Virus record (IMG/VR): IMGVR_UViG_3300038548_000429
Coordinates: 1-50,348 of that record
Source of the DNA: a virus
Strand: one strand, 5' to 3'
DNA length: 50,348 nt
Shown piece after piece: positions 3,927 through 29,026 of the stretch. A program made the translations under genes and the position numbers. How positions within the stretch are numbered: position 1 is the first letter of the stretch; every line of letters starts with the position of its first letter. Under the pieces are notes generated by a model. That model did not search any database. It saw only the letters and a program-made list of their open reading frames with translations, and was not told the origin of the DNA.

Positions 3927-4655
3927 TCAAGGCAACACTATCACAGCATCCCCATAATCATCCGCGCTAACTTGAATGGCGCGGATTTCATAAAAGTCGA
4001 TATGCCCTTCCAGCACTTGCCAATCGATATTCAATAACGCATCAAATCGCACAGTGCGAGACTCACTTGTTTCTAGCACACATATAAACTCGCCTTCACC
4101 TTGCAGCACACCGGGTTGTTTGTGAGTGATGGTGCTGAATGATGCTAGATTATCCAATTTACAATACCCATAATAATGACGGCTATTCAAGGCCGCACCT
4201 TGCATCACATGCAGATCAGCAAAGTATTCACCCACCACAATATAACGTTTGCCAGCTTGCGTGGCGATGTGAGACGCTAATCCGAATGCCCCTCCCCTAC
4301 TGGTCACTTCAAACCTAATCCCCCCACCATCAATAGGCAATACTTCCGGGTGCGGATTCGGGTCGGTTATAAGCAGGTTTGGATACCACGAAACAAACCA
4401 ATTGAATGGTACACATACATCCCGTCCATTCACGCGAATTATGGGCGTGGGCGGACATGTAACGGACAGATCATAGTTGTTATTCAGTGGTAAATCACTA
4501 ATAACTTCCTGTGTGGGTGTGGGATCAGGCGCTGGGATGGTCGTGGCTGGGATTGTGGCAGTGGGGGCCGCTAAAGTAGCGGTGGGGGAGGGGGGTAATG
4601 TCGCTTCACACCCCACCATCACCATCAATATAATGATATACAGAATATATTTCAT
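3927..4655 (-). CDS. Lipoprotein with Pro/Thr-rich linker
   Basis: 242 residues. A hydrophobic signal (YILYIIILMVMVG) ends at Cys16, a slightly non-canonical lipobox (MVGC). A linker of repeated PTAT/PATT units follows to about residue 50, then a beta-rich domain of about 180 residues with scattered cysteines, resembling a carbohydrate-binding sandwich. It would be anchored to the outer face of the membrane. It is the last gene of the late - strand operon, just after the holin-like gene (stop/start overlap at 4655). It could be a superinfection-exclusion or surface-altering protein, or part of lysis. No enzyme motif is seen. PT-rich linkers of this style are frequent in Chloroflexota exported proteins. 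Confidence 0.75.
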   Translation of the reverse strand: MKYILYIIILMVMVGCEATLPPSPTATLAAPTATIPATTIPAPDPTPTQEVISDLPLNNNYDLSVTCPPTPIIRVNGRDVCVPFNWFVSWYPNLLITDPNPHPEVLPIDGGGIRFEVTSRGGAFGLASHIATQAGKRYIVVGEYFADLHVMQGAALNSRHYYGYCKLDNLASFSTITHKQPGVLQGEGEFICVLETSESRTVRFDALLNIDWQVLEGHIDFYEIRAIQVSADDYGDAVIVLP

Positions 4656-5549: not shown

Positions 5550-6734
5550 TTAAAATACAATCTGGTTAGGGCGCTGTCCGAACACGCGATTAAAATCACG
5601 CTGGGTGCTAAATGTTCGCATAACACCTTCCATATTTATATCATCCTCTCCCGACCATACTACACTATTATTTACCTGTTTGTATGCAATGGCTTTTATG
5701 TATGTCTCGCGCGGGTCACTTCCTATAGCACCCCAACCCACCAATATATCATTCACGCGCACTATCTTATCGGGCTTAATCGTCCATGGCCGCAGCAACC
5801 CACCTTGCGTATTGCGTATCCTCAGACCGTCGTCTGTGCGGGCGGTCAATTCCACCACCCGATTGGATGCCCGATAGTACACGCGCCGCTTACCATTTGA
5901 TTTAGTTTCAGTAACGCCCACAATCCACAAATTAGTGCCATCGCCAAATTCCGCGATATTCTGAAATAAATCCCATATGGTTTCGCCTGATTTCTGTCGA
6001 CTTGTTGATGTTACACTTACGCCCGGCGTATCTATTTCGGTGAAATCGGTATTATCCAAAAATGTAGAGGTATTAAGTAGGTCGGGCAATGAATCAGTCG
6101 TCATTAGAGTGGCTTGTGATGAATTAGCTCTATTGGTCTGCACTTTCTCCCACGCCAATGTATCGTAAAATCCCCTCATTTCTATCTTTATGAAAGAGTT
6201 ACCACCTGACTTTTGTGTGACAGATGTTTGTGGAAAACTTACCTCTGCTACTTTACGCGCCCGCAATAGATCAAAGCTAGTAGATTCAACGATTCCACCA
6301 GCTGCCCGCCCTTTCACTGCCACTTCCTTAATTCCATAAATTGATTGGCTATCTGTAACGGATGAAATTCCGGTAATCTCTGTAGTGAAAGTACCAGCCA
6401 CCGACTTGTCATAATTCACATACACCCGGTTGGCCATATTGTCCATAGAGCGCCGGAATTCCAACCCACCTGCTGTATAGTAGGCGGTGCTGATGAAGCC
6501 TTCCCATATAGGTTCAGCCGGGTTATCCACAAACACCGCTACCCGATTACCTACATATTGTGAGAAGAACAATTCAGCTTCCGCTTGTGTCAGGGCTATT
6601 TCGCAATTAGCGGTATCAAACCAACCCATCACATTGATTTTATGCTGATAGCCATTGGCACGATAACGCGCTTTGAAGGCATCCCCCTCTGCGGGCTTAT
6701 CATAAATGTGTATCCAATGTGGCAATACGCTCAT
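5550..6734 (-). CDS. Putative baseplate hub / tail-associated protein
   Basis: 394 residues, second gene after the tape measure. The N-terminal 120 residues (VFVDNPAEPIWEGFI, then FRRSMDNMANRVYV) have the feel of phage tail hub modules, in which a value at a point on the tail axis is wrapped by beta structure. The rest is beta-rich without a peptidase motif. Its ATG overlaps the stop of the Dit-like gene at 6734. I infer that it forms the tail-tip ring below the distal tail protein. The name rests on gene order and weak similarity. Confidence 0.6.
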   Translation of the reverse strand: MSVLPHWIHIYDKPAEGDAFKARYRANGYQHKINVMGWFDTANCEIALTQAEAELFFSQYVGNRVAVFVDNPAEPIWEGFISTAYYTAGGLEFRRSMDNMANRVYVNYDKSVAGTFTTEITGISSVTDSQSIYGIKEVAVKGRAAGGIVESTSFDLLRARKVAEVSFPQTSVTQKSGGNSFIKIEMRGFYDTLAWEKVQTNRANSSQATLMTTDSLPDLLNTSTFLDNTDFTEIDTPGVSVTSTSRQKSGETIWDLFQNIAEFGDGTNLWIVGVTETKSNGKRRVYYRASNRVVELTARTDDGLRIRNTQGGLLRPWTIKPDKIVRVNDILVGWGAIGSDPRETYIKAIAYKQVNNSVVWSGEDDINMEGVMRTFSTQRDFNRVFGQRPNQIVF

Positions 6735-8455
6735 TACACGTCTCGAATTCCCCGCCAGCGCGGGATAATGTTGACGTACATCTCATGCACAATATTAGAT
6801 GATGATTGGGAAAGGTTGCTCAATATTCGATGCGTGAGTAGATAGATACGGTTATCTTGACCCGGTTCTAGCTTCACACCATTACCACGTAATTCATTCT
6901 GGAATATAATATCATGCAAACTAACATCGTCCACATTGGTTTGTGCTATATCTTGTGGTTTACCGTGTGCCAAATAGCCCGAGCTATCCACAATGGCACT
7001 TCTATCGCTCCAGACATATCCAATAGTGAGTGATGTGGAGTCACCCACTGGTATGAATATTATATCTAATGATGTAATGATGCGTGTGGAGGCATCATTA
7101 TTAGTGAATTTTAATTGAAATTCCATATCAGCATTGGTTTGCGATTCACCAACATATACCCCTGTTCCTTCCATTGTCGCATTCACACCATCACCGATTG
7201 GTAATCGAAATTCACCTATATAGGTAAATCCAAATTCACATGTCACACCCGCCCCTATCGGCCATCCACCACCAGAACCGGGGATATTGACTATCCCTAC
7301 TGTGACCGCTTCCTGTGATACGGAAGCATTTAATGATGACGGTACGAGGATGTCCAATTGTGCGCTGACTAAATCTTGTGTAGAATGATCGTATCCTGCC
7401 CTCACAAATGCCATCCAATGACCGCGCAATAACTGCATAGTGAGGGGTACAGTAGACCCGTCCCACTCATAAGTATCATCTGAGCCTGCTGTTAGGCTTA
7501 ACGCACCGTATCCATGCCCCGATGCAATAACCTGTTCTATGCCACAAGTAGCATCGGTTGTTTTAGTGCCTGTATTTGATGATTGGTCAAGCGTGTTCAA
7601 TGACACAAATTGATTAATTGCCCCGCCGCTTTCATCAGGCAATGAATCGGGCAAGTGGCTCACGCCCATGTAAAATCTAGTTACTATATCTATATCTGCT
7701 TTTAGGCCCACGCTTACCAATGCAGGGGCATCACCTGCAATGAGGTCTTTGTCTATATCCAACCAGTTCTTTGTGAGGATGGTGGTAGCTGTAGTAACGG
7801 GTGTATGTTCACATATATTACGCATCGTTGTTGATGATGCAAGATGCCCCGTCCCTTCTACTAACGCCAAATCTGCCAAATCATAATCAATACCCGGCTT
7901 TTGCCCTAATCGCTCAAAGCTCCATATCTTGGGATTGCTGCCGGGCGGCAATACACGCCAGAAAGGTTCTCGCTCAATAGCGATTGTGAGGGTACGCGAT
8001 GCGGGATTATCTCTATCCATCGTCTCTGTTACGTTCATATTGTGAATCAAGGCATATTGTGGCCCGGGTGCGCCTTCAAACCATACATTGATATACACAG
8101 GTTCAATCTGCTGCGATGTCTGCCAGAAATCGCGTGTCAATTCCACCATGCGATTCAAATCTACTAGCACCAATGCTAGTCCCTTCACAGTGGCTGCAGT
8201 GGCAAAGGCTGTCATCTCTTCATTCACATTCTGTTCATTAATACCATGTAGTGTACGCCCATCTGAGGATTCATTATCACTCCATACACCGCCCTTACTC
8301 TGCGCTATCTTAGGTATCCATCCTTCCACTGGTTCAAGTGCAATGTCAGTGTCCCTGCCTGTCAAAGTGAGAGATGCGATTATACCTTGCTCGGAACTGT
8401 TAACGTCGTTGTAGGCTTTGGGAATGCCCGCCTGTATTTTCACCCATTTAAACAT
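6734..8455 (-). CDS. Putative distal tail (Dit-like) protein with extension
   Basis: 573 residues, directly downstream of the tape measure, where siphoviruses encode the distal tail protein. The N-terminal 185 residues end with REPFWRVLPPG, a motif I associate with Dit-type ring proteins. The C-terminal about 380 residues are beta-rich and may add a carbohydrate-binding arm, as in evolved Dit proteins. Stop/start overlap with the hub gene downstream. Assignment is by gene order plus fold impression, so the function is moderately secure and the carbohydrate role is inference. Confidence 0.6.
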   Translation of the reverse strand: MFKWVKIQAGIPKAYNDVNSSEQGIIASLTLTGRDTDIALEPVEGWIPKIAQSKGGVWSDNESSDGRTLHGINEQNVNEEMTAFATAATVKGLALVLVDLNRMVELTRDFWQTSQQIEPVYINVWFEGAPGPQYALIHNMNVTETMDRDNPASRTLTIAIEREPFWRVLPPGSNPKIWSFERLGQKPGIDYDLADLALVEGTGHLASSTTMRNICEHTPVTTATTILTKNWLDIDKDLIAGDAPALVSVGLKADIDIVTRFYMGVSHLPDSLPDESGGAINQFVSLNTLDQSSNTGTKTTDATCGIEQVIASGHGYGALSLTAGSDDTYEWDGSTVPLTMQLLRGHWMAFVRAGYDHSTQDLVSAQLDILVPSSLNASVSQEAVTVGIVNIPGSGGGWPIGAGVTCEFGFTYIGEFRLPIGDGVNATMEGTGVYVGESQTNADMEFQLKFTNNDASTRIITSLDIIFIPVGDSTSLTIGYVWSDRSAIVDSSGYLAHGKPQDIAQTNVDDVSLHDIIFQNELRGNGVKLEPGQDNRIYLLTHRILSNLSQSSSNIVHEMYVNIIPRWRGIRDV

Positions 8456-8458
8456 GCT

Positions 8459-10963
8459 CTAAAATCCTCTCATAGCTGACGCTGTGGCGTTCATAGCTTG
8501 AATATCCTCTGCTCCGCTGCTGCTCATAATATTGATAGTGGTGTCGCCTCTTGAGTTGTTGGTGGTATTGCCAGTACCAAGCCCCATGCCACCTAGTACA
8601 TGCCCTAATCCACTCATTATAGCGTTGCTAGTTTGCGAGTTCAGCACTGCCACACTCTGAGCGCGTGGGCCAGTCATCAATATCTCATTTTCGTGGATAC
8701 GTGCCATGCCATTAAATACGCCACCGGATGCTTCACCGGGTATATCGAAATTGCCACCGCCACCGCCACCACCAAGAGCGCCTGCAATGCCCGCATTCAC
8801 AGCATCAACTAAACTGATGTCGCTAATTACATCCATGCGATTCAGAATTGCATCTAACTCTAGCACAATCTTGCCTAACTCTAGCGCCCCTATCGTGCTG
8901 AATGAGGCAATCGTAGCACCTATTGCGTTGGTAGCCTCTTTGATGGTAGGGCCGGATAAGGTGAATGCGTTGGCCGCATTTTTAGTTTTTGTCTCTACAC
9001 CGCCCATTGCAGATGCCATTAACTCGGCGTTAGCAGTGACTGCTTGCAATGCTGTAACGTCACCGAATTCTGTATTGAGTGCATTCGCAGCTTCGAGCGC
9101 ACCCGGTAAATCTGCGTTTTCTACAGCCACGCCAAATGCTTCAAATAATTCCGCGCTCCGGTTTAGGTCATCTATACCACTCGTATCCACCACCGTTCCG
9201 GGATCGTCTGCATTAATTGTTACATTCTTAATCTGCTGCGCTATCTGATTCGCCAACGCTAAATCACCGCTAGACACTGCTTCATCGAATTGGGATTGTA
9301 CGATTTCTACTATGTTTGCGGCCTCAACACCATGACTTATGGCGCGATTAAGTACATTTTCTAGCGCCTTCTCATCCTCCGCATTTACAATATCAAAGGG
9401 TAATTGGCCCGTTGCTAGTCGCGTTACTTCAGTTTGCGTGGCTGCGGCCCCCGCCACATTTCCACCAATAGATTGCAGGTCAGCAATAAATTGCAAAGCT
9501 CCAATTGCGAAGTTCACTAATGCGGATTCCAGATCATGTACCGTCTGAGCAAACCCATCTAACTGGAACGCAATCTCTATAGCTTCGGGTATGTCCATAC
9601 CGCCTGCAATGAGACTCGTAAAGTCAGTTATGCCCGCCGTGAATTGTGCAATCTTGCCCGGTATATCAAAGGCATCACTCACAGTAGTGGCGAGTTCTTC
9701 AGTGATGGTGCGTTCTAATGTAAGGATGGCAGTACCAAGATCGCCAAATAATATTTGTGTTTGAAGAGCAGCGCGACCCGCTGAATTTCGTAATTCATCG
9801 GCCACTTGTGTAGGGTCAAGCTGTATCGCTACCAATAACCCGACATCCTCACCTTGACTTCCTAACAAGTCGGCCAATTGCCCTTTATTAATTAGACCTG
9901 CTTCAAAGGCAACTTCTGCTGCTTGGAACATACCCGCAAAGAATTCATCTGCGGCTAATTCCCCCGCTGCAAATGCTTCTGCCTCATCAAGTTGTCCAAG
10001 AATCTCCAATACATCAAATTTAACATCACCCGAACCCGCCGCTAATGCCAGTGGTATAGCGTTACCAAGTTCTTTAAATAAATCAACCACTTTATCAACA
10101 TCGCGTGTACCCAAATCTAGTGCCTGTTTCACAGCACTAAATCCAGCTTCAGCACTTAGTCCAATATCGGTAAATTGTACGGAGTATTCATCAATAGAAT
10201 CTAAGAAATCGCCACTGGAATTAAGTCCAGTTTCAAACCCTGCAACGATGAAATCAACAGCTCGTTCAATATTGCTAAATAGCCCTGTGTCTACCAACTT
10301 GTCAGCAGCAGTTAATACCGATAGAAAATCCTCGCCTGTGAGCGCCGCGCCTGCAAAAACAGCCTCAGTATTTTTAGCTAAATCCTTTACATTACCCGTT
10401 GTTTGCAATACTAACGCTGCATTCTCTGCAATCTCTTCCTTACTATCGGCCCACGCATTCAAGAATATCCCCTGAATAAGCCCAGCAGCATCAGGGATGT
10501 CCTGATTAACGCGGCTTGTTAACGTCCGCACGGCCTTGTCTGTATCTAGGATTGTACTAAGTAAGGGAATATCGGCTATGCTAGTGGGGATGGGAAGATT
10601 GGCCACGATGTTGATGACAGCATCAACACCAAGTAAGGTCTGTACCCATGAATCCACATCTGCATCAGCATTCGACATATCGGCATCGACTTCAATTTCA
10701 GCATCGGGCACGTCAATAGACCTAATGGCGGATTCGGCTTTGCTGATGTCAGCATCCACGCCAATCTCTACATTCTTGCCCTTCACACCTTTCAGTAACC
10801 CGCCAAGTGTGTCAAGACCTTTGCTATCGACACTCACTTTCGCGGTGATGTCCTTGAGGGCTTTGTCGGCTTTAGCTCCCAGCGCAATAGCTTTATTAAG
10901 GTCTTTTGTATAGTCCTTAATATCCGCTTCAACGCTGATGCCTATTGTAGGGAACTCTGCCAT
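8459..10963 (-). CDS. Tail tape measure protein
   Basis: 834 residues, the longest gene in the genome. It is Ala/Asp/Leu-rich, mainly helical, with repeated hydrophobic patches and a seven-glycine run near residue 730. It ends with a segment (GGVFNGMARIHENEI, then TGPRAQS) typical of tape-measure C-termini. It starts one base after the stop of the chaperone reading frame. It sets tail length during assembly. At about 0.15 nm per residue this predicts a tail near 125 nm, a siphovirus value (established scaling, not measured here). No lysozyme or peptidase module is embedded. Confidence 0.9.
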   Translation of the reverse strand: MAEFPTIGISVEADIKDYTKDLNKAIALGAKADKALKDITAKVSVDSKGLDTLGGLLKGVKGKNVEIGVDADISKAESAIRSIDVPDAEIEVDADMSNADADVDSWVQTLLGVDAVINIVANLPIPTSIADIPLLSTILDTDKAVRTLTSRVNQDIPDAAGLIQGIFLNAWADSKEEIAENAALVLQTTGNVKDLAKNTEAVFAGAALTGEDFLSVLTAADKLVDTGLFSNIERAVDFIVAGFETGLNSSGDFLDSIDEYSVQFTDIGLSAEAGFSAVKQALDLGTRDVDKVVDLFKELGNAIPLALAAGSGDVKFDVLEILGQLDEAEAFAAGELAADEFFAGMFQAAEVAFEAGLINKGQLADLLGSQGEDVGLLVAIQLDPTQVADELRNSAGRAALQTQILFGDLGTAILTLERTITEELATTVSDAFDIPGKIAQFTAGITDFTSLIAGGMDIPEAIEIAFQLDGFAQTVHDLESALVNFAIGALQFIADLQSIGGNVAGAAATQTEVTRLATGQLPFDIVNAEDEKALENVLNRAISHGVEAANIVEIVQSQFDEAVSSGDLALANQIAQQIKNVTINADDPGTVVDTSGIDDLNRSAELFEAFGVAVENADLPGALEAANALNTEFGDVTALQAVTANAELMASAMGGVETKTKNAANAFTLSGPTIKEATNAIGATIASFSTIGALELGKIVLELDAILNRMDVISDISLVDAVNAGIAGALGGGGGGGNFDIPGEASGGVFNGMARIHENEILMTGPRAQSVAVLNSQTSNAIMSGLGHVLGGMGLGTGNTTNNSRGDTTINIMSSSGAEDIQAMNATASAMRGF

Positions 10964-11271
10964 TATTTGTTCTTCTTATTCTTTGCGTCTAATTTACGCT
11001 GCTCATTATCGTCATAATCGCGCATGGCCCGAATGTTGCTCATTCCATACGTTTCAGCACACATCACTACCCTATCTTCATGGCTCAATTCCCACCATTC
11101 AGAAGGGCTAAGATTATACTCTTTAGCTACCGTCAGATGCCCTAGAATCGAACTGTACTTGACGCCGTAACTTTGTGATTTCTTGAAGCAAGGGTGTGTA
11201 TTTATCCAATCCGCTACGTTCACTCCGCGATACTCTAACCCGAAACACACGCCACGCGGAATGAATATCAT
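10963..11271 (-). CDS. Tail assembly chaperone, frameshift extension (gpT-like)
   Basis: The reading frame overlaps the end of the upstream chaperone ORF by about 150 bases, is open from roughly 11299 down, and ends against the tape measure start. The part unique to it (EYNLSPSEWWELSHEDRV) matches the Pro-Ser-Glu-Trp pattern of gpT-like extensions. The in-frame ATG at 11271 has GAGG directly against it, too close for initiation. I therefore think it is made as a fusion to the upstream ORF by a shift into the +1 frame. The ORF is given here by its maximal ATG form. The true junction is probably near 11191. Confidence 0.7.
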   Translation of the reverse strand: MIFIPRGVCFGLEYRGVNVADWINTHPCFKKSQSYGVKYSSILGHLTVAKEYNLSPSEWWELSHEDRVVMCAETYGMSNIRAMRDYDDNEQRKLDAKNKKNK

Positions 11272-11785
11272 CCTCGCTAGGCTCTGCCTCCATGATGTCT
11301 AGTTGGTCGTGCGCGGCTTCGTATATCTCATCTATATCGCCCTGTGAGGCGCATAGACAATGATACAGCGTAGCAAGCCACTCATCATCCGGTAAATCCA
11401 TAAAGGCGCTCAGGTCGCTTCGTTGATCTTTATATTGCTCAATGAGGGCTTCTTTCGATTGCGGCCACTCCACACTTATTTCCACCATTGCTTCTAGGTA
11501 TCCACGATTCCGCAATTTATCCGCTTCCGATTTGATGGCTTCATATTCCTCATATCTCACATTCGATTTATCACTAATCGGGATGGTTGCACCGGGTGAC
11601 TCACTTCCCTCGATTTGCTCTTCATATTCCTTCTCATCGGGGTAGGGGAATGTATCAGCAAGTTTCTTAAACACCGCTTGACGGGTATAAGGCGATAGCG
11701 GCTTCACCAATATGGTGACGCCACTATCCAGTATCAATTCGATTGCCTTCATCTTCACTGCTGTCGTACCGTTCTTTCTGCTCAT
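11123..11785 (-). CDS. Tail assembly chaperone (gpG-like)
   Basis: 220 residues, acidic, between the major tail protein and the tape measure. This position holds the G/GT chaperone pair in long-tailed phages. A C-terminal overlap with a second frame is the family hallmark. Residues 1-60 carry VKPLSPYTRQAVFKKLADTF, reminiscent of tail-chaperone N-termini. It should bind the tape measure and recruit tail tube subunits. Most translation would stop at 11123. A fraction would continue in the other frame. Confidence 0.8.
   Translation of the reverse strand: MSRKNGTTAVKMKAIELILDSGVTILVKPLSPYTRQAVFKKLADTFPYPDEKEYEEQIEGSESPGATIPISDKSNVRYEEYEAIKSEADKLRNRGYLEAMVEISVEWPQSKEALIEQYKDQRSDLSAFMDLPDDEWLATLYHCLCASQGDIDEIYEAAHDQLDIMEAEPSEDDIHSAWRVFRVRVSRSERSGLDKYTPLLQEITKLRRQVQFDSRASDGS
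11189..11194 (-). promoter_or_regulatory. Candidate +1 ribosomal frameshift site CCC-T
   Basis: Reading the - strand, the chaperone frame has codons ACA CCC TTG at this point. Slippage of the proline tRNA from CCC to CCT moves the ribosome into the frame that reads TGC TTC AAG and continues to 10963. The two ORFs are related by +1 (or -2), not by the usual -1, and CCC-T is a known type of +1 slippery codon. No stop codon follows immediately to enhance it, so the exact site is a proposal. Confidence 0.4.
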
Positions 11786-11818: not shown

Positions 11819-13348
11819 TTATTGTCTCACTAATCCGATAAATCCTTGTCCACCATCCGCTTCACCTACCGTAATACAGTGCTGGTTATCGGCTACTGCA
11901 ATGCTATTGATGGTCTGATTTGCTGGGCTAGTGAATGACCCTATCACTTCCGTTTGTTTATCGCCTAAATTACCACCACTGCGATCAAACAGCACACGCG
12001 ATAAAGCCGCTGCATCGGTCTGTACGATGAATAAGATAGCGCCTCTGAATCCGGTAAATTTCAAATCCTCAATTGTCCCCACACCTTGTTTCTGAAACGA
12101 TGGCAATGTATAGGCGGGTTTGTTGTTGTTTTGCGGTTTCTTGCTGCGCCAAATCGTACCCGCATCCGTGCCTAAAAACAACTCATCGCGGTCAGGTGGG
12201 GCAGCAATCGCGGTGACAGCGTCGGTTAACGCCGTACCATCCGCTTGCTTCACTGTAGCTAAACTTCCTACACGCGCACCGGATGGGCCATCAATCTTTA
12301 CTACCACGCCACCTGCTCCACCTATCCATGCTAGATTTGAATTGCTCACTGCGCCTACCGTGAGGTCGGCTGATGTAATAACAGCAGCATCGAATGATGT
12401 CCAACTCCCACCACCATCGGTACTGATATAGATGTAGCCACCATCACCAAATGCGATGATGTCACCATTGGGCATCACCATACCATCATTGGGGAAATTG
12501 GCTGTAATGCCAGTGGAGGCAGTAAAGGATGTCGGGCCTAAATCATCGCGCAAGTCCTGCAAAGCTACCCGCGTCGGGCCATGTGATGGGCTAAACACAA
12601 CCAATGTATCGCCTTGCTTCACAATACCTGTGGCGTTGGCTGTCAGGAAATCATCTATAGCAGTGAGATCCCATGTTGCGCCTTTATCCTCACTAAAACC
12701 AACATACGGAATGCTCGTTCCGGCATAACCGGGTGACGCATCCAAATCCGTGACAAATGCGATTTCATTTGTGCCATCTAACTGGTCGCCACAATCGCCA
12801 TAACATTGCTCTGGACTTAGATATATCACTTTGTTGATAGCTACATCTGTGACGTCCTTGCTGATGTCAGTATGCTGCAACTTGGTGGACAATACACGGA
12901 TACCCGCACTATAAGGGAGGCTAAACTTTTGGTCACTTCCGGGTGTGTCGGCGTTATTGGCTAACGGGTCACTGAAATCATTTGAGGTAGAATATGAGTC
13001 TTGAAACTCAGTGATAGCCTGATAATTGGTGATTTCACGAATATCCCCGCACATGTGCCTCACTCTGACATTAACCGGGCAATCTGTGAAACCCTTAACC
13101 TTCAAAAACTCTTGTACTGTCGCACGATACATCATAGTGAATGTAAAACGCTCCCGGTTGCTGGTGACATTACCACCGATATAAGCATCGCCCCCGTCAT
13201 CACCACGTCCCCACTTACTATCTACACTGACACCACCACCTGTTGCGGCATCAATCTCGCCTTGCGTATCCACAATGACCCAGGGATTGCCAGCGCCTTT
13301 CTGAATACCAACTATCGTGCGGCTGCGTTCATTGCTAATTTGTGCCAT
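11819..13348 (-). CDS. Major tail protein with Asp-box beta-propeller domain
   Basis: 509 residues. The gene lies between the head-tail joining gene and the chaperones, where the tail tube protein is expected. Residues 1-180 look like a tube subunit. From about 190 onward there are repeated blades with Asp-box (BNR) motifs: FSEDKGATWDL near 219-229, YISTDGGGSWTS near 304-315, and a weaker GTDAGTIWRS near 395. This is the signature of sialidase-like or Ycf48-like propellers. I infer a tube protein that displays a propeller on the outside of the tail, perhaps to bind glycans. A separate, non-tube role is possible but would leave no other major tail protein. Confidence 0.75.
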   Translation of the reverse strand: MAQISNERSRTIVGIQKGAGNPWVIVDTQGEIDAATGGGVSVDSKWGRGDDGGDAYIGGNVTSNRERFTFTMMYRATVQEFLKVKGFTDCPVNVRVRHMCGDIREITNYQAITEFQDSYSTSNDFSDPLANNADTPGSDQKFSLPYSAGIRVLSTKLQHTDISKDVTDVAINKVIYLSPEQCYGDCGDQLDGTNEIAFVTDLDASPGYAGTSIPYVGFSEDKGATWDLTAIDDFLTANATGIVKQGDTLVVFSPSHGPTRVALQDLRDDLGPTSFTASTGITANFPNDGMVMPNGDIIAFGDGGYIYISTDGGGSWTSFDAAVITSADLTVGAVSNSNLAWIGGAGGVVVKIDGPSGARVGSLATVKQADGTALTDAVTAIAAPPDRDELFLGTDAGTIWRSKKPQNNNKPAYTLPSFQKQGVGTIEDLKFTGFRGAILFIVQTDAAALSRVLFDRSGGNLGDKQTEVIGSFTSPANQTINSIAVADNQHCITVGEADGGQGFIGLVRQ

Positions 13349-13364
13349 GATATTTGTTCCTTTT

Positions 13365-13901
13365 TTACTTTATTTTACGTGAAGCTCTTCGCAGAGCATT
13401 TTCCATTCGTCGTTTAAAATCTGGTTTCAATACATCTTCTAATGTACTTGTGAACTCGCGTGCTTCTATGCCGGGATGAATCACACCTTTTGCAGCAACA
13501 CGCGGCCCGGATGCCTTGCCCGAACCCACATTCGCTTTTGCTATCGGCCTTGTGCGCGGGCTATAGCCTGTCCTAAAGAACAATGTTCCGCCCGGCTTCT
13601 TTGGAAATATTGGGTATGCAGACTTCTTAGGGCCAAACTTGCCCGTCCCTTTATCTACCCAATGGAATATATTCACAATGTCCTTTTTGCCCGTGACATT
13701 GACTATGCCAGTGATTAAATTAGGCGTGATACGATTCTCTGGTGTGAATTTAGGTTTCTTTTTCCATCCTTGCACTGAAGCCGTCAAAAGCGCGGCCAAT
13801 GCGAAAGTGACTACGTGCATTTCTTTATTCAATTCTTGCTTTAACACTTTATCTTGCCGTATCATCTCGGCGCGTATGCTCTTTACTTTACGTGACGCCA
13901 T
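13365..13901 (-). CDS. HK97 gp10-like head-tail joining / tail completion protein
   Basis: 178 residues, strongly basic. The middle carries FHWVDKGTGKFG, then AYPIFPK, and the C-terminal half VIHPGIEAREF. This is the W..GT / HPG pattern of the HK97 gp10 family, which caps the tail or joins it to the head. It lies directly upstream of the major tail protein, as usual. Its start overlaps the glycosyltransferase gene by 14 bases. A convincing family match by motif and position. Confidence 0.8.
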   Translation of the reverse strand: MASRKVKSIRAEMIRQDKVLKQELNKEMHVVTFALAALLTASVQGWKKKPKFTPENRITPNLITGIVNVTGKKDIVNIFHWVDKGTGKFGPKKSAYPIFPKKPGGTLFFRTGYSPRTRPIAKANVGSGKASGPRVAAKGVIHPGIEAREFTSTLEDVLKPDFKRRMENALRRASRKIK

Positions 13902-14562
13902 TAATAACCTCCATCACCATATTCTTGATGGTGGTATGATAACGATTGGCACGGCTGTATCGCTTACTGGCTGTGCGATTATAAAAGAACACCGGATAGT
14001 CTATGTATAGAGGCTTCACTTTCGCCTTGTAAATGAGAGACGCCATGAATCCCCAATGCTCCCCACCTATATTGAATTCGGGGCTATACCCACCTGCTTT
14101 ATGCCAGTCCTTTTTATCGAACATGAAACTAGCATAACCTATGTTCTTGTGATGTATCATAGATGGCTTGGGAGGGCGTTGATCTACCATGCCATTGCCA
14201 TTTACTTCCACCCAATTGCCATATACAAAATGGCCGGGCTTATAGGCGGTTTTCATCGCTTCCACTGCGCCCTCTGCCAACCAATCATCAGCATCCAATG
14301 GCAATATAAGACCATCGTCTGCCTCGCCTATCGCTAGATTGCGGGCATGACACACGCCCGCTGGAAATGCTGAATGGGTGCTAAAATAGTCTAAATGTGT
14401 GGGATTGCGAAAATGTGATTCTAATGTTTCATATCCATCACCATTGTCACCATCAAACACCACAATCACACTATCACATTGGTCTATGGCACTCTCTACC
14501 GCTTTATTCAGCGTAGAGGCATTATTGTGGCACGGGATAATGCACGTAACTGGTAATGTCAT
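13888..14562 (-). CDS. Family 2 glycosyltransferase embedded in head-tail genes
   Basis: 224 residues of GT-A fold. The nucleotide-sugar start motif is CIIPCHNNAS at residues 7-16, a DxD-type metal site DADD lies at 90-93, and a later acceptor loop includes GGYSPEFNIGGEHW. It would transfer a sugar from a nucleotide-sugar donor. Donor and acceptor are unknown. It overlaps structural genes on both sides (13901 and 14559), so it is translated together with head-tail joining proteins. That suggests the acceptor is the virion or is modified at assembly time. Confidence 0.85.
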   Translation of the reverse strand: MTLPVTCIIPCHNNASTLNKAVESAIDQCDSVIVVFDGDNGDGYETLESHFRNPTHLDYFSTHSAFPAGVCHARNLAIGEADDGLILPLDADDWLAEGAVEAMKTAYKPGHFVYGNWVEVNGNGMVDQRPPKPSMIHHKNIGYASFMFDKKDWHKAGGYSPEFNIGGEHWGFMASLIYKAKVKPLYIDYPVFFYNRTASKRYSRANRYHTTIKNMVMEVINGVT

Positions 14563-15740
14563 AATGCACCTCGCACTCTAGTCGAGGTGAACTTGCCCCC
14601 ACGCCCTAACGCCTGTTCTTGCACAAAATCCCACGCAAATAGGCTACCTTCATTTATTCCAAACGGATTGGTAATGTTGCGCTCAGTCGTGGGGCCTTCA
14701 TTCAAATCACGTCGCATAATCGCTTGGATAGGGTCACATACCTTCTCTATATCTACAATGAAGGTGTTAGCCAGACGCATCAGGACTTGTGCAAAGTCAT
14801 TATCCATACGCTGATATTGTTCTTGGAATCCTGCTTTATAAAACACCCTCACGGTATTGGGCGCGAATTTAGTGGACTGACTCCCTTCAAACCGTACTTG
14901 AAATATCCCTAAGCGATTGTTTCTAGGCAATACAAGCCCACTATGTAAATTCCATATCTCTAAATCGGTAAGTTCAGTAAAGACCGGGTCGCTCATATAT
15001 TGCACGGGAGTCGTTGTGTCGGTGTAAACGCGATATATATCTACTAATGTAACAAAATCCCCCGCCGTGCTGGTATCGGCTTGGTTGATGTCGCGTGATT
15101 CAGGTTCGTTGTAAGGTGTGTCCCATATATTAGGTTTCACAAATAATGCGCGATGCCCCACAATCGTAATAGTGACGCCATCAGTCGTGACCGTGACAGG
15201 CGCTATCCGAAAGCGTTCATCCCCAGCGGCTTTGCCAGAATCGCTTGCTGTGAAGAATATCTGAATTTCATCTGCACTGAGCGTGGAAGCGACGGTCATG
15301 GTGGCGGTATCATCAGCACTCAATATACCGGGATTCGATTCTGAGTATGTCACCGTAGCATCGTCATCTAATAATGTGGTGGCCCGTTGCCCATATTCAA
15401 TCACATAGCCCATGCTAGTCTGTAGCTGCTGCTGACTCACTGGAATGCCAAAGCCTAGTGGAATTTCCTCAACAAAATACTGAGGCAAAGGCGTGTAGCC
15501 AAGATGGGATGACATTTTGCGATAAGCAGTATATAACCCACGCGCCACTGAATCACGAGAGGGTTGCACCCAACTAGGGCATTGACTAGTCGGTACATCG
15601 TCACCCGTCACCTGATTGAAACGCCAAATCTCTTCTCTAATCTCTTCACGCCAAATATTCAGTAAGTGCGGCGGTATTAAGGAACGCGCCCCCGTGCTGT
15701 TGTTGAGTTGGAAATGCGATGTAAGTTCGGTTATGGCCAT
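14559..15740 (-). CDS. Putative head-tail junction / virion structural protein
   Basis: 393 residues, first gene after the 770-bp non-coding region and so probably first in the tail operon. Alternating helical (1-110, 310-360) and beta-rich (120-300) parts. The C-terminal part includes CDPIQAIMRRDLNEGPTTE. No family was recognised with confidence. Position just before the gp10-like and tail genes makes a head-completion or connector role likely. The beta insert around residues 130-200 could be a surface domain. Confidence 0.55.
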   Translation of the reverse strand: MAITELTSHFQLNNSTGARSLIPPHLLNIWREEIREEIWRFNQVTGDDVPTSQCPSWVQPSRDSVARGLYTAYRKMSSHLGYTPLPQYFVEEIPLGFGIPVSQQQLQTSMGYVIEYGQRATTLLDDDATVTYSESNPGILSADDTATMTVASTLSADEIQIFFTASDSGKAAGDERFRIAPVTVTTDGVTITIVGHRALFVKPNIWDTPYNEPESRDINQADTSTAGDFVTLVDIYRVYTDTTTPVQYMSDPVFTELTDLEIWNLHSGLVLPRNNRLGIFQVRFEGSQSTKFAPNTVRVFYKAGFQEQYQRMDNDFAQVLMRLANTFIVDIEKVCDPIQAIMRRDLNEGPTTERNITNPFGINEGSLFAWDFVQEQALGRGGKFTSTRVRGAL

Positions 15741-16509: not shown

Positions 16510-18369
16510 TTATGGTTCTTGCGGATAGCAAATCTCGTATAGCTCAGGCTGTCGTGCGAAATAGGCAGTGTGTTCCGGTTCTATCTGGCACACGCGACCG
16601 GGTACAATTGAATAATGTCTCCCACCTGTGAATTCACCAAATGGCTTTTGGTTTTTGCCGTGATACCGCACACCGAAATATGTAGCAGGTGGGCGTTGTG
16701 TGAGATGTACTAAGCCTGTTTTAGGTTGGAATAATTGCGCTACCCTAGCGGTGAACGAATGATGCTGGCGGATGTGGCGTGTCCCACGATTGGCAATGCG
16801 CTTGCGCTCTACATCATGAGCCAGATAGTATTTGATTTTAGCTACCATCTCATCTAATGAATCGAAGCCCACATAATGTTTACCTTCCTCAATACCAATG
16901 AGTTCGTCTAATCGTGGCACATTCTGATGGATAAGTAGGCAATTCCCAGCGGCTATCGCTTGGAATAATCTATTGCTAACAAAGCCATCAGCATCGGGGT
17001 ATTCATTTGTGCCTATAGCAATCTTGGCACTGCGATATAGGGCTTTCGCATTAGTGAAATTATATAATGTAGATGGCTCACTATCCGGCCCATATTGAGC
17101 ATAATCGAATTGCTGCAACCGGGCATCCACTTGCTTACGCGGTTCATTATATACCGTCGCCAGCCACACTACATCTACTGGTTCGGGCTTGAAATCGGCC
17201 TTAACGGGTGGGTCTTCATATCCGATTTGCCAATAAGCAGATTGAATTGCGGTGTCTGTGTACGTCTTCCTAACACTATCATTTACCACAAGTTGCAAAT
17301 CGAATTGACGCAACAAATGGAGCATGTTATCGGATACAAGCGACTTGGGCCAATAATCCCCATTCCAATTTATCCATACCGATTTGGGAGCGTGGGCGCG
17401 GGCCATGCGGATTTGTTCAGGTGCTATGCGGTCAGTATCGTGAAATTGTGTCATCACCATGTTGGGCTTAAATAGGTCAAGGATGTTGCATAAACTCTGA
17501 TAAGGGCTTTTACTGTACATATAGTTAAATTCCCATATCCACTGACCACGCCCGTAATCGCGCAAGGCGTCTCTAAGACCTGTTTTTTGCTCTAATTGGA
17601 TGGGGTGACCCGGTTCATACAGGGGCAAGTATAGGACGCGCAAATGGGCGTTATCGTCGCGTGTAGCAGGTAATGCAGGGATGAATGGGCCGTTAGGATA
17701 CCGCTTAAAATAGCCATTGCTATCATTAGCCGTCATGCGCTCTCTAAGTTCATCTCTTACAATGAGGTCATGCACCTTCACACCGGGTACACGGTCAATA
17801 GAAAGTCCCATTTCCCATATCCGCGCACTGAGATAATTATCCACTCCGTAAGTAATGGGCGGTAGTGCTTCATCATCAATGCCCCACCATCCGGCCTCAT
17901 CGCCTATATCGCGTGGATACATCCCCACTTGTGCATAAACCACCCATTTTTGCGCCCCGTGCGCTGGCATCCCCTGTACGCCGTATATGTCAGAGTTATC
18001 GCCGCGATTGCTGCGATCATCCTCAAATGCCACCCCGCCGCAAGAACGATTGTCCTCAAGGTATATCATTGCCTGTATGATGCCATTATCTAAGAATTGT
18101 ATGTCATCATTAGCCAATACCACATAATCGCCCGTAGACGCAAAAGCTCCATCACAGAATGCCTTTTGCACACCTAGCAATTCGCCATGTTCTATGAGCT
18201 TTATATCATCCTGCTCTTTACACCATGCCAGTGTGCCGTCTGTGCTACCGCCATCTACTACTACGAACTCGCGTTCTATCCCAACCGGGAACTGCACACG
18301 GGCGCTTTCGATCATAGTCTTTAAGTGGGGAAGGCGGTTGTATGTGCCTGTAACAATGCTAATTTTCAC
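16510..18369 (-). CDS. Two-domain glycosyltransferase (GT2 + CgeB-like GT-B)
   Basis: 619 residues. The first 250 are a GT2 domain with ISIVTGTYNR at 3-12, VVDGGSTDGT at 37-46 and acidic site ANDD at 86-89. Residues about 240-560 form a second domain resembling CgeB-type GT-B enzymes: FKPNMVMTQFHD, SNRLFQAIAAGNCLLIHQ and GFDSLDEMVAKIKYYL, the usual donor-side signature with a trailing RHIRQHHSF. A short C-terminal extension follows. A fused pair can add two sugars in sequence (inference). It is the last gene of the glycan island and overlaps the appendage gene at 18369. Donors and acceptor unknown. Confidence 0.85.
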   Translation of the reverse strand: MKISIVTGTYNRLPHLKTMIESARVQFPVGIEREFVVVDGGSTDGTLAWCKEQDDIKLIEHGELLGVQKAFCDGAFASTGDYVVLANDDIQFLDNGIIQAMIYLEDNRSCGGVAFEDDRSNRGDNSDIYGVQGMPAHGAQKWVVYAQVGMYPRDIGDEAGWWGIDDEALPPITYGVDNYLSARIWEMGLSIDRVPGVKVHDLIVRDELRERMTANDSNGYFKRYPNGPFIPALPATRDDNAHLRVLYLPLYEPGHPIQLEQKTGLRDALRDYGRGQWIWEFNYMYSKSPYQSLCNILDLFKPNMVMTQFHDTDRIAPEQIRMARAHAPKSVWINWNGDYWPKSLVSDNMLHLLRQFDLQLVVNDSVRKTYTDTAIQSAYWQIGYEDPPVKADFKPEPVDVVWLATVYNEPRKQVDARLQQFDYAQYGPDSEPSTLYNFTNAKALYRSAKIAIGTNEYPDADGFVSNRLFQAIAAGNCLLIHQNVPRLDELIGIEEGKHYVGFDSLDEMVAKIKYYLAHDVERKRIANRGTRHIRQHHSFTARVAQLFQPKTGLVHLTQRPPATYFGVRYHGKNQKPFGEFTGGRHYSIVPGRVCQIEPEHTAYFARQPELYEICYPQEP

Positions 18370-19700
18370 TATCCGTTTTCCTCAATATCTAGTCGGGCGA
18401 AATAGGTCTCCGCACCACTCACCACCACACGCGCGGCCAATACCAATTCATCGCGTGTTCCATCAATGAGTGAGCCAAGACGTAGGCGATTTTGTATCAC
18501 CTCATGCCCGATATTAGCTGACTTTTGCGTGAGCGTTCCACCTAAATCTATCCCGCCTGTGAGGGTGTTGGTGTCATCGCGGCTAATGTCATATTCTATG
18601 CTCCCATTAGTCAACCCTACCCATGATACTTGGTCATCCCCCGCCACTGTGGGGTTTAATAGCAGCATGGATTCAAAATTAGAATTACCTACCGTCATGA
18701 TGGCATAATCCAATATATTCACAACCGCATGTAGATGATCCTCTTTGAGGCGGATAGATAGAATAGGGTATAAGTTAGTATCATTGCCAGCAGAAAACCC
18801 GCTTGCACCCCGCGTCACACCACGTATCACACCCGCATTCTGTTCGCCACCTTCACTAATTACAGTCGAACAGATTTGTACCAATGAAGCCGCCGCACCT
18901 GTGCCATCGTTATTAATTTCAAATCTCACAGGCAAGTTTGGACTACTCATATATACGGTTGTGAGTGTGTTGGCATGATGCGAATGGTGGGCAATAATTG
19001 GGATACCATCTATAAATATCCCCCACCTTACTTGCCCCGTACCAAGCCATTCATAATCTAAAAAGAATATCTGTACTTTCGTTGTATCAATTGTTACTTG
19101 CGATAACCCTTCACCATCTAAGGTATCGAAATTCCACGCGGATTGCGGTGTGACTGAATCAACCGCGCTACCAGACGCACTAGAACGAATCACCAGCGAT
19201 AACACACTATCCTTTAGTTGAAAAAACATGCCATCATCATCATTATATAACCCTAATCGGCGCGTGATACCATCCTCTGCCGCACCCAATACCCCTGTAA
19301 ATATGGCAAGTTGCGATTTGCCGGGTTGATAATTATTATGGGTTTTCTGTTGTCGTATTCGTGTCCCCGCTGTGGCTGCGCTCACTGACATAGTAGAGGC
19401 TGCTAAGGGTATAGAATGTGTAGAGGTAGTTCCCGCGCCCGATGTTTCGGCGTCGTCAAAAAGCAATGGGTTGTTATCGAATATCTGTTTGCTATCAAAT
19501 AGAGTGTGAGGTGTAGTGACCCGTTGCCTTGCGAATGCGTCCAATGCCGCGCTATCTACCATCCCCACCGATAACGCTATAGGGTCACGGGCAAAGGGGT
19601 GTGTGGCAAATAATAGTGCGTGGGTATCATCTTGCATATCTAACCACCGCTGTCTTATATCAGGTGGAGTCAGTCTAATAGGTTGAATTTTATCGGGCAT
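18369..19700 (-). CDS. Virion structural protein, probable appendage/fibre
   Basis: 443 residues. The segment HSIPLAASTMSVSAATAG, then RIRQQK.HNNYQPGKSQLAIFTGVLG is of a type I recognise from a widespread phage virion protein usually near fibres. The remainder is beta-rich and jelly-roll-like (about 110-290), then a second beta region. It is rich in Ser/Thr and could be an acceptor for glycosylation. Its stop and start overlap the double glycosyltransferase and the small gene at 19700, so all are co-translated. Confidence 0.6.
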   Translation of the reverse strand: MPDKIQPIRLTPPDIRQRWLDMQDDTHALLFATHPFARDPIALSVGMVDSAALDAFARQRVTTPHTLFDSKQIFDNNPLLFDDAETSGAGTTSTHSIPLAASTMSVSAATAGTRIRQQKTHNNYQPGKSQLAIFTGVLGAAEDGITRRLGLYNDDDGMFFQLKDSVLSLVIRSSASGSAVDSVTPQSAWNFDTLDGEGLSQVTIDTTKVQIFFLDYEWLGTGQVRWGIFIDGIPIIAHHSHHANTLTTVYMSSPNLPVRFEINNDGTGAAASLVQICSTVISEGGEQNAGVIRGVTRGASGFSAGNDTNLYPILSIRLKEDHLHAVVNILDYAIMTVGNSNFESMLLLNPTVAGDDQVSWVGLTNGSIEYDISRDDTNTLTGGIDLGGTLTQKSANIGHEVIQNRLRLGSLIDGTRDELVLAARVVVSGAETYFARLDIEENG

Positions 19701-20538: not shown

Positions 20539-21501
20539 TTACACCGTCCCTAATGCTAGGATTGCAGGCGTAATGGGAGTATCCCATATTGCAAATTGTG
20601 CCAGATAGCCATTCCAGGGAGAAATTGGGGCGGGGCCAGATGCTCCCAACGCTGTAGCACCTGCACTTAGTCCGATTCCTGCTGTAGCGTCACAAACTGC
20701 TGTACCTTCAGAAACGCCATCAACCACCATTTCTATCTCATTGCCTATCACTGACCACGAAAATATAAAACTTTGCCAAGCAGTTATACCTGTTACCGAT
20801 TTGGTAATTGACCGTTCAGCTAATCCACTGCCTCTGTGGCGGACTCGTAAATCATCGCCCGATGAGTCCATTGCAATATAATTGTTTGCATCACGACGGA
20901 TACGAAACTGTGCGCGGAATTGGTCGTTCCACGATCCGGCGTCGTTTGGTTTCACCCACAGTAACACACACCCCTCATCCATATCGAAATCAGCACCAAA
21001 TCCCCCATCAAAAATATCTACAGAATCATTTACCCCATCAAAGAACGGAGCTTCACCACCCGTTGGCGGTATTTGTCCATCCCATGTCACACCTATATAT
21101 GGCGAGTTATAACCGTTTCCAGATGAATCTAGTGCATTAGCGCCACTACCCTCATTTAACTTAAGGTAGAGGAATGGGTTGGTCGCTAACACATCACCAG
21201 CATAATCAACCGCAAATGCAATCAATTCTTTCAAGTATACAATCTCAAGGTCACTCTGCCATTGGATATATAGCCTATGTAAGGCGCTACTTAACGTGGC
21301 ATTAGTAGTGCCTAGCACCTCCAATATCGCAGCATCAATAATGACAGCACCCAAATCACCCACCACTGGCAACGGTACTACCGCCGTGAGCAGAGGTTCT
21401 TGCACTGTAAGGTCTTCGATAAATGCTTTCAGGCGGATGTAGTCCAATCCATCATTTTGCAAAGCCAATGGACGCCCGCGCACGTCGCTTAATGTGGACA
21501 T
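20539..21501 (-). CDS. LamG/concanavalin-like lectin domain protein, probable receptor-binding
   Basis: 320 residues. The first about 105 are helical. Residues about 110-320 show the laminin-G/ConA-like jelly-roll series: YLKLNEGSGANALDSSGNG, then PFFDGVNDSVDIF, FSWSVIGNEIEMVVDGV, and the closing NGYLAQFAIWDTPITPA. This fold binds sugars in many phage fibres and in secreted adhesins. It sits between hypothetical virion genes and the methyltransferases, with ATGA-type overlaps, so it is expressed with the glycan-modifying enzymes. I infer a receptor-binding or decoration protein. Confidence 0.78.
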   Translation of the reverse strand: MSTLSDVRGRPLALQNDGLDYIRLKAFIEDLTVQEPLLTAVVPLPVVGDLGAVIIDAAILEVLGTTNATLSSALHRLYIQWQSDLEIVYLKELIAFAVDYAGDVLATNPFLYLKLNEGSGANALDSSGNGYNSPYIGVTWDGQIPPTGGEAPFFDGVNDSVDIFDGGFGADFDMDEGCVLLWVKPNDAGSWNDQFRAQFRIRRDANNYIAMDSSGDDLRVRHRGSGLAERSITKSVTGITAWQSFIFSWSVIGNEIEMVVDGVSEGTAVCDATAGIGLSAGATALGASGPAPISPWNGYLAQFAIWDTPITPAILALGTV

Positions 21502-22415
21502 TAGGCGTCTCCATTTTTCATACGGGTCGCTTTCCGTTTACCTTCATTTTGTGCAGCCTCTAACTGAGATGTCACGGTGCGATCATCAATACCATCACCA
21601 TTTTCATCTACAAATTCAGTATCATGTGACGCCTTTAATAGTCCTATCAACCTACCACGATCTAATTTGGCAGATTTTCTCTTGCCTTCACGCACTAAGA
21701 TGCTACGAATTTGCTCTCTTATGTTACGTTCTTTAGGGCCGCTACGCTTCCACAAATCATCATATTTCATAGCATCATAATCAATGGCTACATCAGCAGC
21801 ATCCGCACGAAATATTGCAAGCCCGCAATCACCCGGCTCTGTAAGATAGTAATTGGGAACTATGTCCGTTGCTTCAATTCCCATCCTCACTTGTGAACCA
21901 ACTAAGTGATGCTGTGCGGCATGTGATATGAGAAAGCCACCCGGCTTTATCAACCTATCGCGCTGTTCCCATATTGACCGTACACGGTAGCTATCATGTG
22001 ACCCACGTTCAAATACAAAATCATAGTCATCATCCTGTGAGGTTAACCAGTCGTAAATATCCTCTTTTAATAATTCAGAGGAGCGCCGTAAACGTACTGG
22101 CCAACCCTGACCCGCGCCCTTTACATTACTTACCGCCTTTAGGGTAGAAATGTTATCATTAGCCTTCATAGCCAATAGCATATGCGTAGTAGAGCAGCCG
22201 TGCCATGTACCCAATTCCAGTAACCTAGTCGGCTTAGTGGCACGAATCAAGGCATACAATACTTGCCCATCCACACGCCATATTGACCCATTGGGCCACG
22301 CGCCGTAGCTATCGTCCCATCCAGTCTCGGTGTCCTCTGCGGCATAGTTGATTAACTCAGTAGCGTCTAGTCCAAAGTCCGCTGCTAATTTTGTGAGTGT
22401 GTGTGTTAAGTTCAT
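21501..22415 (-). CDS. SAM-dependent methyltransferase, paralogue A
   Basis: 304 residues. Class I motif I is LELGTWHG at 66-73. The first about 205 residues align throughout with the protein at 22776-23459, starting from the same MNL.TL.K opening. Compared with that copy, the DxxxH pair is altered (ERGSH) and the HD before the last helix is HA (His165-Ala166), so catalysis may be changed. A charged extension (205-304) is unique. The family methylates sugars or small hydroxylated acceptors. The acceptor here is unknown. Part of the glycan island. Confidence 0.8.
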   Translation of the reverse strand: MNLTHTLTKLAADFGLDATELINYAAEDTETGWDDSYGAWPNGSIWRVDGQVLYALIRATKPTRLLELGTWHGCSTTHMLLAMKANDNISTLKAVSNVKGAGQGWPVRLRRSSELLKEDIYDWLTSQDDDYDFVFERGSHDSYRVRSIWEQRDRLIKPGGFLISHAAQHHLVGSQVRMGIEATDIVPNYYLTEPGDCGLAIFRADAADVAIDYDAMKYDDLWKRSGPKERNIREQIRSILVREGKRKSAKLDRGRLIGLLKASHDTEFVDENGDGIDDRTVTSQLEAAQNEGKRKATRMKNGDA

Positions 22416-22819
22416 TTGATTTCCTTTACCATGCTCTTCAAATTGCCATTGTTCGATTGCAAATATCGTGCCTCTGCCTCTTGCGTAATTTGGGCTAGAC
22501 CCGTTTCACGCATCTTATTGCATATCGTGCGCGTTAAATCGGGATGTCTCCCAAAGCCCCACCTATCCACGCCAATGTCAAGGACATGTAACTTAGCATC
22601 CGGGCAAGTCGGTATATGCTCCCTCAGTAGTGGTTCGCCTGCAATAATCACCTTATCGGCCCACTCGCATAACATAGCTCGTGTAGCAGGGGAGGTAGTC
22701 ACCATCCCGGCAACAATCACATCTTTCATGCCTACTACATCTTTCAATATGCCGCCCGTACCCATGCTTCTAACATTACCGTAGGCGCAAAATACCGCTA
22801 TTTTTGTATCCGTGTTCAT
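22412..22819 (-). CDS. Low-molecular-weight phosphatase-like protein
   Basis: 135 residues. The N-terminus after a first strand (IAVF) contains CAYGNVRS at 11-18, the C-x5-R-S phosphate loop of protein tyrosine phosphatases. Later, EWADKVII and VLDIGVDRW (Asp81/Asp85) resemble the WAD and general-acid regions of the predicted phosphatase family COG4551. It could remove phosphate from tyrosine or from a sugar-phosphate. It is nested between two methyltransferase paralogues and overlaps the second by 44 bases. No other phosphatase domain feature was verified, so the assignment is motif-based. Confidence 0.6.
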   Translation of the reverse strand: MNTDTKIAVFCAYGNVRSMGTGGILKDVVGMKDVIVAGMVTTSPATRAMLCEWADKVIIAGEPLLREHIPTCPDAKLHVLDIGVDRWGFGRHPDLTRTICNKMRETGLAQITQEAEARYLQSNNGNLKSMVKEIK

Positions 22820-23459
22820 TTGATTCCTCTATATATAGTTTCTGTTCAATGGCTAATCCGCAATCACTCGGTTCTGTAATGTAGGTGAAGGGCACTCCAC
22901 CTGCTAACTTTATGCCCATCCTCACCGCGTTACCCACCGCATGATGTAAGGCATCATGACTAAGCATGAAGCCACCGGGCGATAGGCGCGGCTTTGATGC
23001 CATCCACAAACCGCATGTAAGTTCTATTGTGTGGTTGGTATCCTCAAAGATGAAATCATATTGATTCGTCGTTTCGGTCATCCATTCCATTGCATCACGC
23101 AGATAAAATGTGAATGGGTCTGTTAAATACTCTGGGATCATGTTGCCAGGACTAATACCATGCGTGTCTCTGTCCACTGCATCCAATATAGCCCCGTTGT
23201 CATTAGCCTGCATAGCCATCAATATATGGGTGGCAGAGCAGCCGTGCCATGTCCCTAGTTCAAGGATGTGTTTAGGCTTGATAGCACGAATGAGCGCGTA
23301 TAACGTTTGACCCTCGACTTGCCATAAGCTACCCTCCGGCCAGTCACCTTCGCCCCTATCCCATCCGGTTTCGGTGTCTTCGTCAGCATAGGCAATAAGC
23401 TCATCAGCATCTAAATTAAAATCTATCGCTATTTTAGATAATGTACGAGATAGATTCAT
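22776..23459 (-). CDS. SAM-dependent methyltransferase, paralogue B
   Basis: 227 residues, class I fold, with motif I LELGTWHG at 66-73, DTNHT around 140-144 and SHDALHH near 167-173. These conserved acids and histidines match the CmcI-like/Methyltransf_24 type, and are the ones altered in paralogue A. The last about 20 residues differ in composition and overlap the phosphatase-like gene. It is a likely O-methyltransferase acting on a glycan or nucleotide-sugar (inference). Confidence 0.82.
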   Translation of the reverse strand: MNLSRTLSKIAIDFNLDADELIAYADEDTETGWDRGEGDWPEGSLWQVEGQTLYALIRAIKPKHILELGTWHGCSATHILMAMQANDNGAILDAVDRDTHGISPGNMIPEYLTDPFTFYLRDAMEWMTETTNQYDFIFEDTNHTIELTCGLWMASKPRLSPGGFMLSHDALHHAVGNAVRMGIKLAGGVPFTYITEPSDCGLAIEQKLYIEESNEHGYKNSGILRLR

Positions 23460-28928: not shown

Positions 28929-29026
28929 GTCCAATCACCTTTATAGCGTGTCAGAAATATCCATGTGAGATTGGTCAATATAGAACCTAGAATAAAGCCT
29001 AATAGAATATATGTAGTTGGAGTCAT
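28925..29026 (-). CDS. Small membrane protein (33 aa)
   Basis: 33 residues with one membrane helix (ILLGFILGSILTNLTWIFL) and a basic tail. The ATG at 29026 overlaps the stop of the glycosyltransferase gene, and its stop overlaps the DUF1360 start at 28928. The double coupling makes it likely real despite its size. It may pair with the DUF1360 protein in the membrane. Confidence 0.65.
   Translation of the reverse strand: MTPTTYILLGFILGSILTNLTWIFLTRYKGDWT

Follow-up and report, generated by a model that had tools for sequence, protein, structure and literature searches.

A predicted tail-tube protein with a C-terminal Asp-box beta-propeller in a family of uncultured phages

The window analysed here is a stretch of 50,348 nucleotides, covering positions 1 to 50,348 of the IMG/VR record IMGVR_UViG_3300038548_000429. 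Its tail genes lie on the minus strand in the order neck protein, 509-aa protein, chaperone, overlapping ORF and tape measure. The same gene order was found in relatives wherever the contig extended far enough. The 509-aa gene (11819..13348, minus strand) is interpreted below as encoding a tail-tube (major tail) protein with a beta-propeller joined to it, as indicated by its ORF, 32 relatives, the gene order and the structural model of one relative. Directly upstream lies a gene for a neck or tail-completion protein of 178 aa (13365..13901, minus), which had a weak match to PHROG 5 and a homologue on a Chloroflexota contig with matching terminase (TerL) and capsid genes. Further upstream, a gene of about 400 aa (14559..15740, minus) is adaptor-like by position, and most relatives have a similar-sized gene upstream. 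On the other side of the 509-aa gene, the tape-measure protein (834 aa; 8459..10963, minus) matched PHROG tape-measure families (E 3e-5) and occupies the same place in relatives. It is followed by a 573-aa protein (6734..8455, minus), a distal tail protein by position, whose counterpart in a core relative has a Dit domain.

Between the 509-aa gene and the tape measure lies a 220-aa ORF, a G-like tail-assembly chaperone by position (11123..11785, minus). It is overlapped by a T-like ORF in the +1 frame (10963..11271, minus; overlap 11123-11271), which is probably read by frameshifting. An ORF in this relative frame was present at 26/26 loci examined, comprising the window and 25 relatives (e.g. 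L210, L219 and L166). In 21 of these loci the overlap contained an in-frame TTT followed by C, often as TTT CCT GGG; in the window it is at 11245-11242. In-frame TTT_C made up 3.3% of the codons in the overlap, compared with 0.27% elsewhere in the chaperone genes. The features of the overlap suggest a programmed +1 frameshift site, and its TTT_C resembles the UUU_C shift of influenza PA-X. The order of genes matches that of lambda and HK97; the shift annotated in HK97 is -1.

The 509-aa protein almost certainly consists of two parts, the second being a propeller. Residues 1-190 form an N-terminal domain (12779..13348, minus), predicted to be tube-forming and delimited by alignment to the modelled relative (profile E 1.5e-4), with cysteines at residues 90, 100, 182 and 186 in the domain and the linker after it. 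Residues from about 195 to 509 form the Asp-box beta-propeller (11822..12766, minus). Two Asp-boxes matched the consensus (S/T)-x-(D/N)-x-G-x-(T/S)-W: SEDKGATW at residues 219-226 (12671..12694, minus) and STDGGGSW at residues 309-316 (12401..12424, minus). An earlier note on this DNA, which gave no strand for the gene, had reported at least two well-formed Asp-boxes in the C-terminal 320 residues, and both points held. Among 20,000 composition-preserving shuffles of the protein, 19,958 had no box, 42 had one and none had two, so the pair is beyond chance; the propeller of the modelled relative spans about residues 198-500. A recognisable box is retained in only two blades of the 509-aa protein, compared with up to five boxes in relatives, and few blades with a recognisable box are common in the Asp-box propeller family (PMC2716378).

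Taken by itself, the protein had few matches. Against Pfam it gave a BNR match below threshold (E 0.011), and no match was found in PHROG, PDB sequences or the phage collection. As a direct query it retrieved nothing from IMG/VR, GTDB contigs or INPHARED. The tape measure, the chaperone and a structural protein likewise retrieved nothing from IMG/VR, and the tape measure found nothing in related records. The terminase, in turn, had a relative with 43% identity on a Chloroflexota genome contig, where the capsid and neck genes matched too. A two-sequence TerL alignment then retrieved 31 IMG/VR records. Within these records, the 509-aa protein matched a 515-residue frame over residues 51-323 (30% identity, E 1e-21) and a 508-residue frame (E 9.5e-8). 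After iterative profile searches and two more scans, the family comprised the 509-aa protein and 32 non-redundant members, all of these relatives metagenomic.

These 32 relatives, from other uncultured phages, share the two-part design. Where the frame is complete, its length is about 497-524 aa, and every full-length member has both parts. A profile built without the 509-aa protein retrieved it with E 2.7e-27 for the whole protein, 7e-18 for the propeller part and 1.5e-4 for the N-terminal domain. Relatives of the same length matched Pfam above the cut-off, namely Ycf48/PSII_BNR (E 6e-7) and Sortilin-Vps10 (E 7e-12). The N-terminal domain profile matched only ORFs that also hold the propeller. 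None of the family members tested had a convincing PHROG match, and INPHARED gave no match for the members tested, save one partial propeller match in a Sinorhizobium phage. In 400 Chloroflexota genomes, only matches to the propeller part were found; the three from the first search lay in cellular propeller proteins and were rejected.

A structure prediction of the full protein, proposed as a check in the earlier note, succeeded for a relative, while the 509-aa protein alone (single-sequence AlphaFold2) reached only pLDDT 30. For the relative, the member encoded on contig L210 (L210:2648-4147), an AlphaFold2 model from 32 aligned sequences had a mean pLDDT of 87 and a pTM of 0.85, and showed a small N-terminal domain and a propeller (residues 198-500). 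The best Foldseek match of the propeller was Ycf48, itself an Asp-box propeller (E 4e-11). VIA-align superposed the model on seven-bladed propellers with Z about 29 over about 290 residues at 2.5-3 angstrom. The best viral structural match was A0A1P8DJ39 in BFVD (497 aa, without name or annotation), which matched over its full length (TM 0.70, E 1.3e-17). It is probably another member of the family; its sequence identity is 16%. Because the 509-aa protein and the modelled L210 protein share about 21% identity, we infer the structure of the former from its relative. Going by this model, its C-terminal half is very probably a seven-bladed Asp-box propeller. Asp-box propellers also occur in other phage proteins. 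Ycf48 differs in being a free-standing protein, which takes part in photosystem II assembly and binds the D1 peptide, whereas the phage propeller forms part of a tail protein and retains fewer of its Asp-boxes intact.

The tube assignment comes from gene order, with the 509-aa gene directly before the chaperone and its +1-frame ORF, and these in turn before the tape measure. The tape measure was identified by profile in the window and in four relatives, and by size and place elsewhere. In the four relatives tested, PHROG tape-measure families matched in every case (E to 7.5e-43) and Pfam TMP_3 in two (E 1e-16 and 1.5e-14). The next gene in the core clade has a Dit domain (one member tested). 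On this gene order, we are confident that the 509-aa protein is the tail-tube subunit of a long tail. It is very unlikely to be a neck, tip or free accessory protein, with the tube made from another gene. Such a reading draws on the N-terminal domain, which had no sequence match to tube families. It conflicts with the constant position of the gene and with the need of a phage with a tape measure for a tube protein. The other conserved genes nearby encode only proteins of about 97, 178 and 400 aa, of neck or adaptor types, and none of the related loci has another plausible tube gene between these and the chaperone and tape measure. The alternative tube protein that would have overturned the earlier note was thus absent from this interval. 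A profile of the N-terminal domain did not align with lambda and HK97 proteins, a comparison that is uninformative as these were single sequences. Tail-tube chains were absent among the structural matches listed for L210, which is equally uninformative as propellers fill the list. The strand-helix order of the N-terminal domain in the L210 model is compatible with a tube domain.

In the architecture that we propose, the 509-aa protein would build the tube of a long-tailed, non-contractile phage. Roughly the first 190 residues would form the tube ring, and the seven-bladed Asp-box propeller would be carried outside. Since all members have the two parts fused in frame, a propeller should be present on every subunit. 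Tape measures account for 1.5 angstrom of tail per residue. Rings are 38-43 angstrom high (PMC9022992). At about 4 nm per ring, a tape measure of 834 residues would span an estimated total of about 30 hexameric rings, which would bear about 190 propellers per tail. The propellers might act as non-enzymatic, multivalent binders of low affinity, which would hold the virion loosely to a polymer or protein of the host surface until the tip engages. The combination of tube subunit, outward propellers and loose multivalent adhesion is, in our judgement, the best joint explanation, and moderately likely to be right. The adhesion role itself is a best guess, at even or slightly better, with stiffening or shielding possible. 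Of the earlier interpretation, the propeller in frame with a tail-tube subunit stands, by gene position. Glycan binding and loose host attachment would be conjectures; divergence of the propeller is no quicker than that of the N-terminal domain, and Ycf48, its closest structural match, binds a peptide and not a sugar.

Asp-box propellers are known both as enzymes and as receptors, and many are glycosidases (PMC2716378). GH74 xyloglucanases were also present among the structural matches, and a propeller with sialidase or xyloglucanase activity, for example, could trim surface glycans along the tail. Residue conservation speaks against this. Across 32 sequences, the positions kept in at least 85% of propellers were glycines, aromatics and one Asp, the structural one of an Asp-box, and no Glu, Arg, His or Lys reached that level. 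Catalysis is therefore unlikely, and the best structural match, Ycf48, is not a glycosidase. An enzymatic propeller is accordingly a very unlikely reading, and assignment to the glycosidase families GH33 or GH74 was rejected because residues of the catalytic kind are not widely conserved in the propeller.

A structural cuff, in which adjacent propellers would pack round the tube to make the tail stiffer or shield it, with no part in host binding, deserves more weight, although we consider it rather unlikely. It would fit the universal fusion in the family and the similar divergence of the two parts, with mean identities in the core clade of 64% for the propeller and 67% for the N-terminal domain. 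With divergence so nearly equal, the propeller is no obvious host-range domain of the fast-changing kind; its role could be structural, or its ligand could be a conserved one. A fixed joint between the two parts would also suit a cuff. Two cysteines of the N-terminal domain and at least two of the linker (residues 90, 100, 182 and 186 in the 509-aa protein) were kept in 31/32 aligned members, and the remaining member, L240, had lost one of each together. This pattern suggests paired disulfides or a metal site at the joint, as far as the alignment can tell. Against a cuff, known tube decorations are dispensable for tube formation (PMC9022992), and relatives carry another, unrelated propeller in the distal tail protein, which is a better fit to a binding role.

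Tail-tube decorations are common and their role is unsettled; most of those known are small Ig-like domains, as in lambda, T5, HK97 and YSD1 (PMC9022992). Like lambda gpV, T5 pb6, HK97 gp12 and YSD1_22, the 509-aa protein would form the tube and bear an additional domain, C-terminal and on the outside, and the likeness to lambda and HK97 extends to the chaperone and tape measure downstream. It differs in the decoration, which is a propeller of 300 residues, larger than the tube domain itself, instead of a small Ig-like fold. The earlier note had named smaller Ig-like decorations as the known case. This is incomplete, as in lactococcal phages of the 936 group some of the tube subunits bear a larger carbohydrate-binding extension, with a function in host-cell binding (PMC6669499). 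The major tail protein of this group, with its TpeX extension, resembles the 509-aa protein in having a large extra tube domain and a total length of about 470-530 aa, and host-cell binding has been shown for 936 phages. There, however, a BppA-like carbohydrate-binding domain is added by frameshift to a share of the subunits, whereas here the propeller is in frame on every subunit; all full-length members of the family have a single open frame, without a TpeX-type frameshift to the extension.

Among the titles and abstract openings that searches of open-access literature retrieved, none described a propeller on a tail tube. Decorated tail-tube proteins are already known; the propeller would be new as the decoration, in a family absent from PHROG and INPHARED matches. 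A propeller fixed in every subunit across diverse phages would offer a clear, testable case of the purpose of tail-wide display, and the family brings together uncultured phages that otherwise have no annotation for their tail genes. More tentatively, these phages could be a widespread group in which a tail coated with about 190 reversible-adhesion propellers and a second, unrelated propeller in the distal tail protein of the core relatives form a general host-contact module.

The second propeller was found by profile in the distal tail protein of L210 (L210:7104-9560), as a Rax2/DUF5122 propeller beside a Dit C-terminal domain. ORFs in L195, L166 and L198 are similar to this protein by eye. 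The 573-aa distal tail protein of the window had no Rax2/DUF5122 propeller match.

Several other genes of the window may relate to the host or the virion surface. A putative lipoprotein (3927-4655) has a Pro-Thr-rich N-terminal stretch, which is typical of Chloroflexota lipoproteins and a hint to the host. Together with the one genome contig, which may reflect a binning error, this hints at a Chloroflexota host. Glycosyltransferases (13888-14562, 16510-18369 and 29023-29934) and two methyltransferases (21501-22415 and 22776-23459) are encoded among the structural genes, and the related contig L128 has sugar-nucleotide-like genes after the capsid gene. Judged from these gene contents, glycosylation of the virion is possible. 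The product of 18369-19700 is a virion structural protein of PHROG 1645 (E 3e-83), common to cyanophages, phage HMO-2011 and Virus Rctr197k. A protein with a LamG/concanavalin-like lectin domain (20539-21501) is possibly another virion surface protein.
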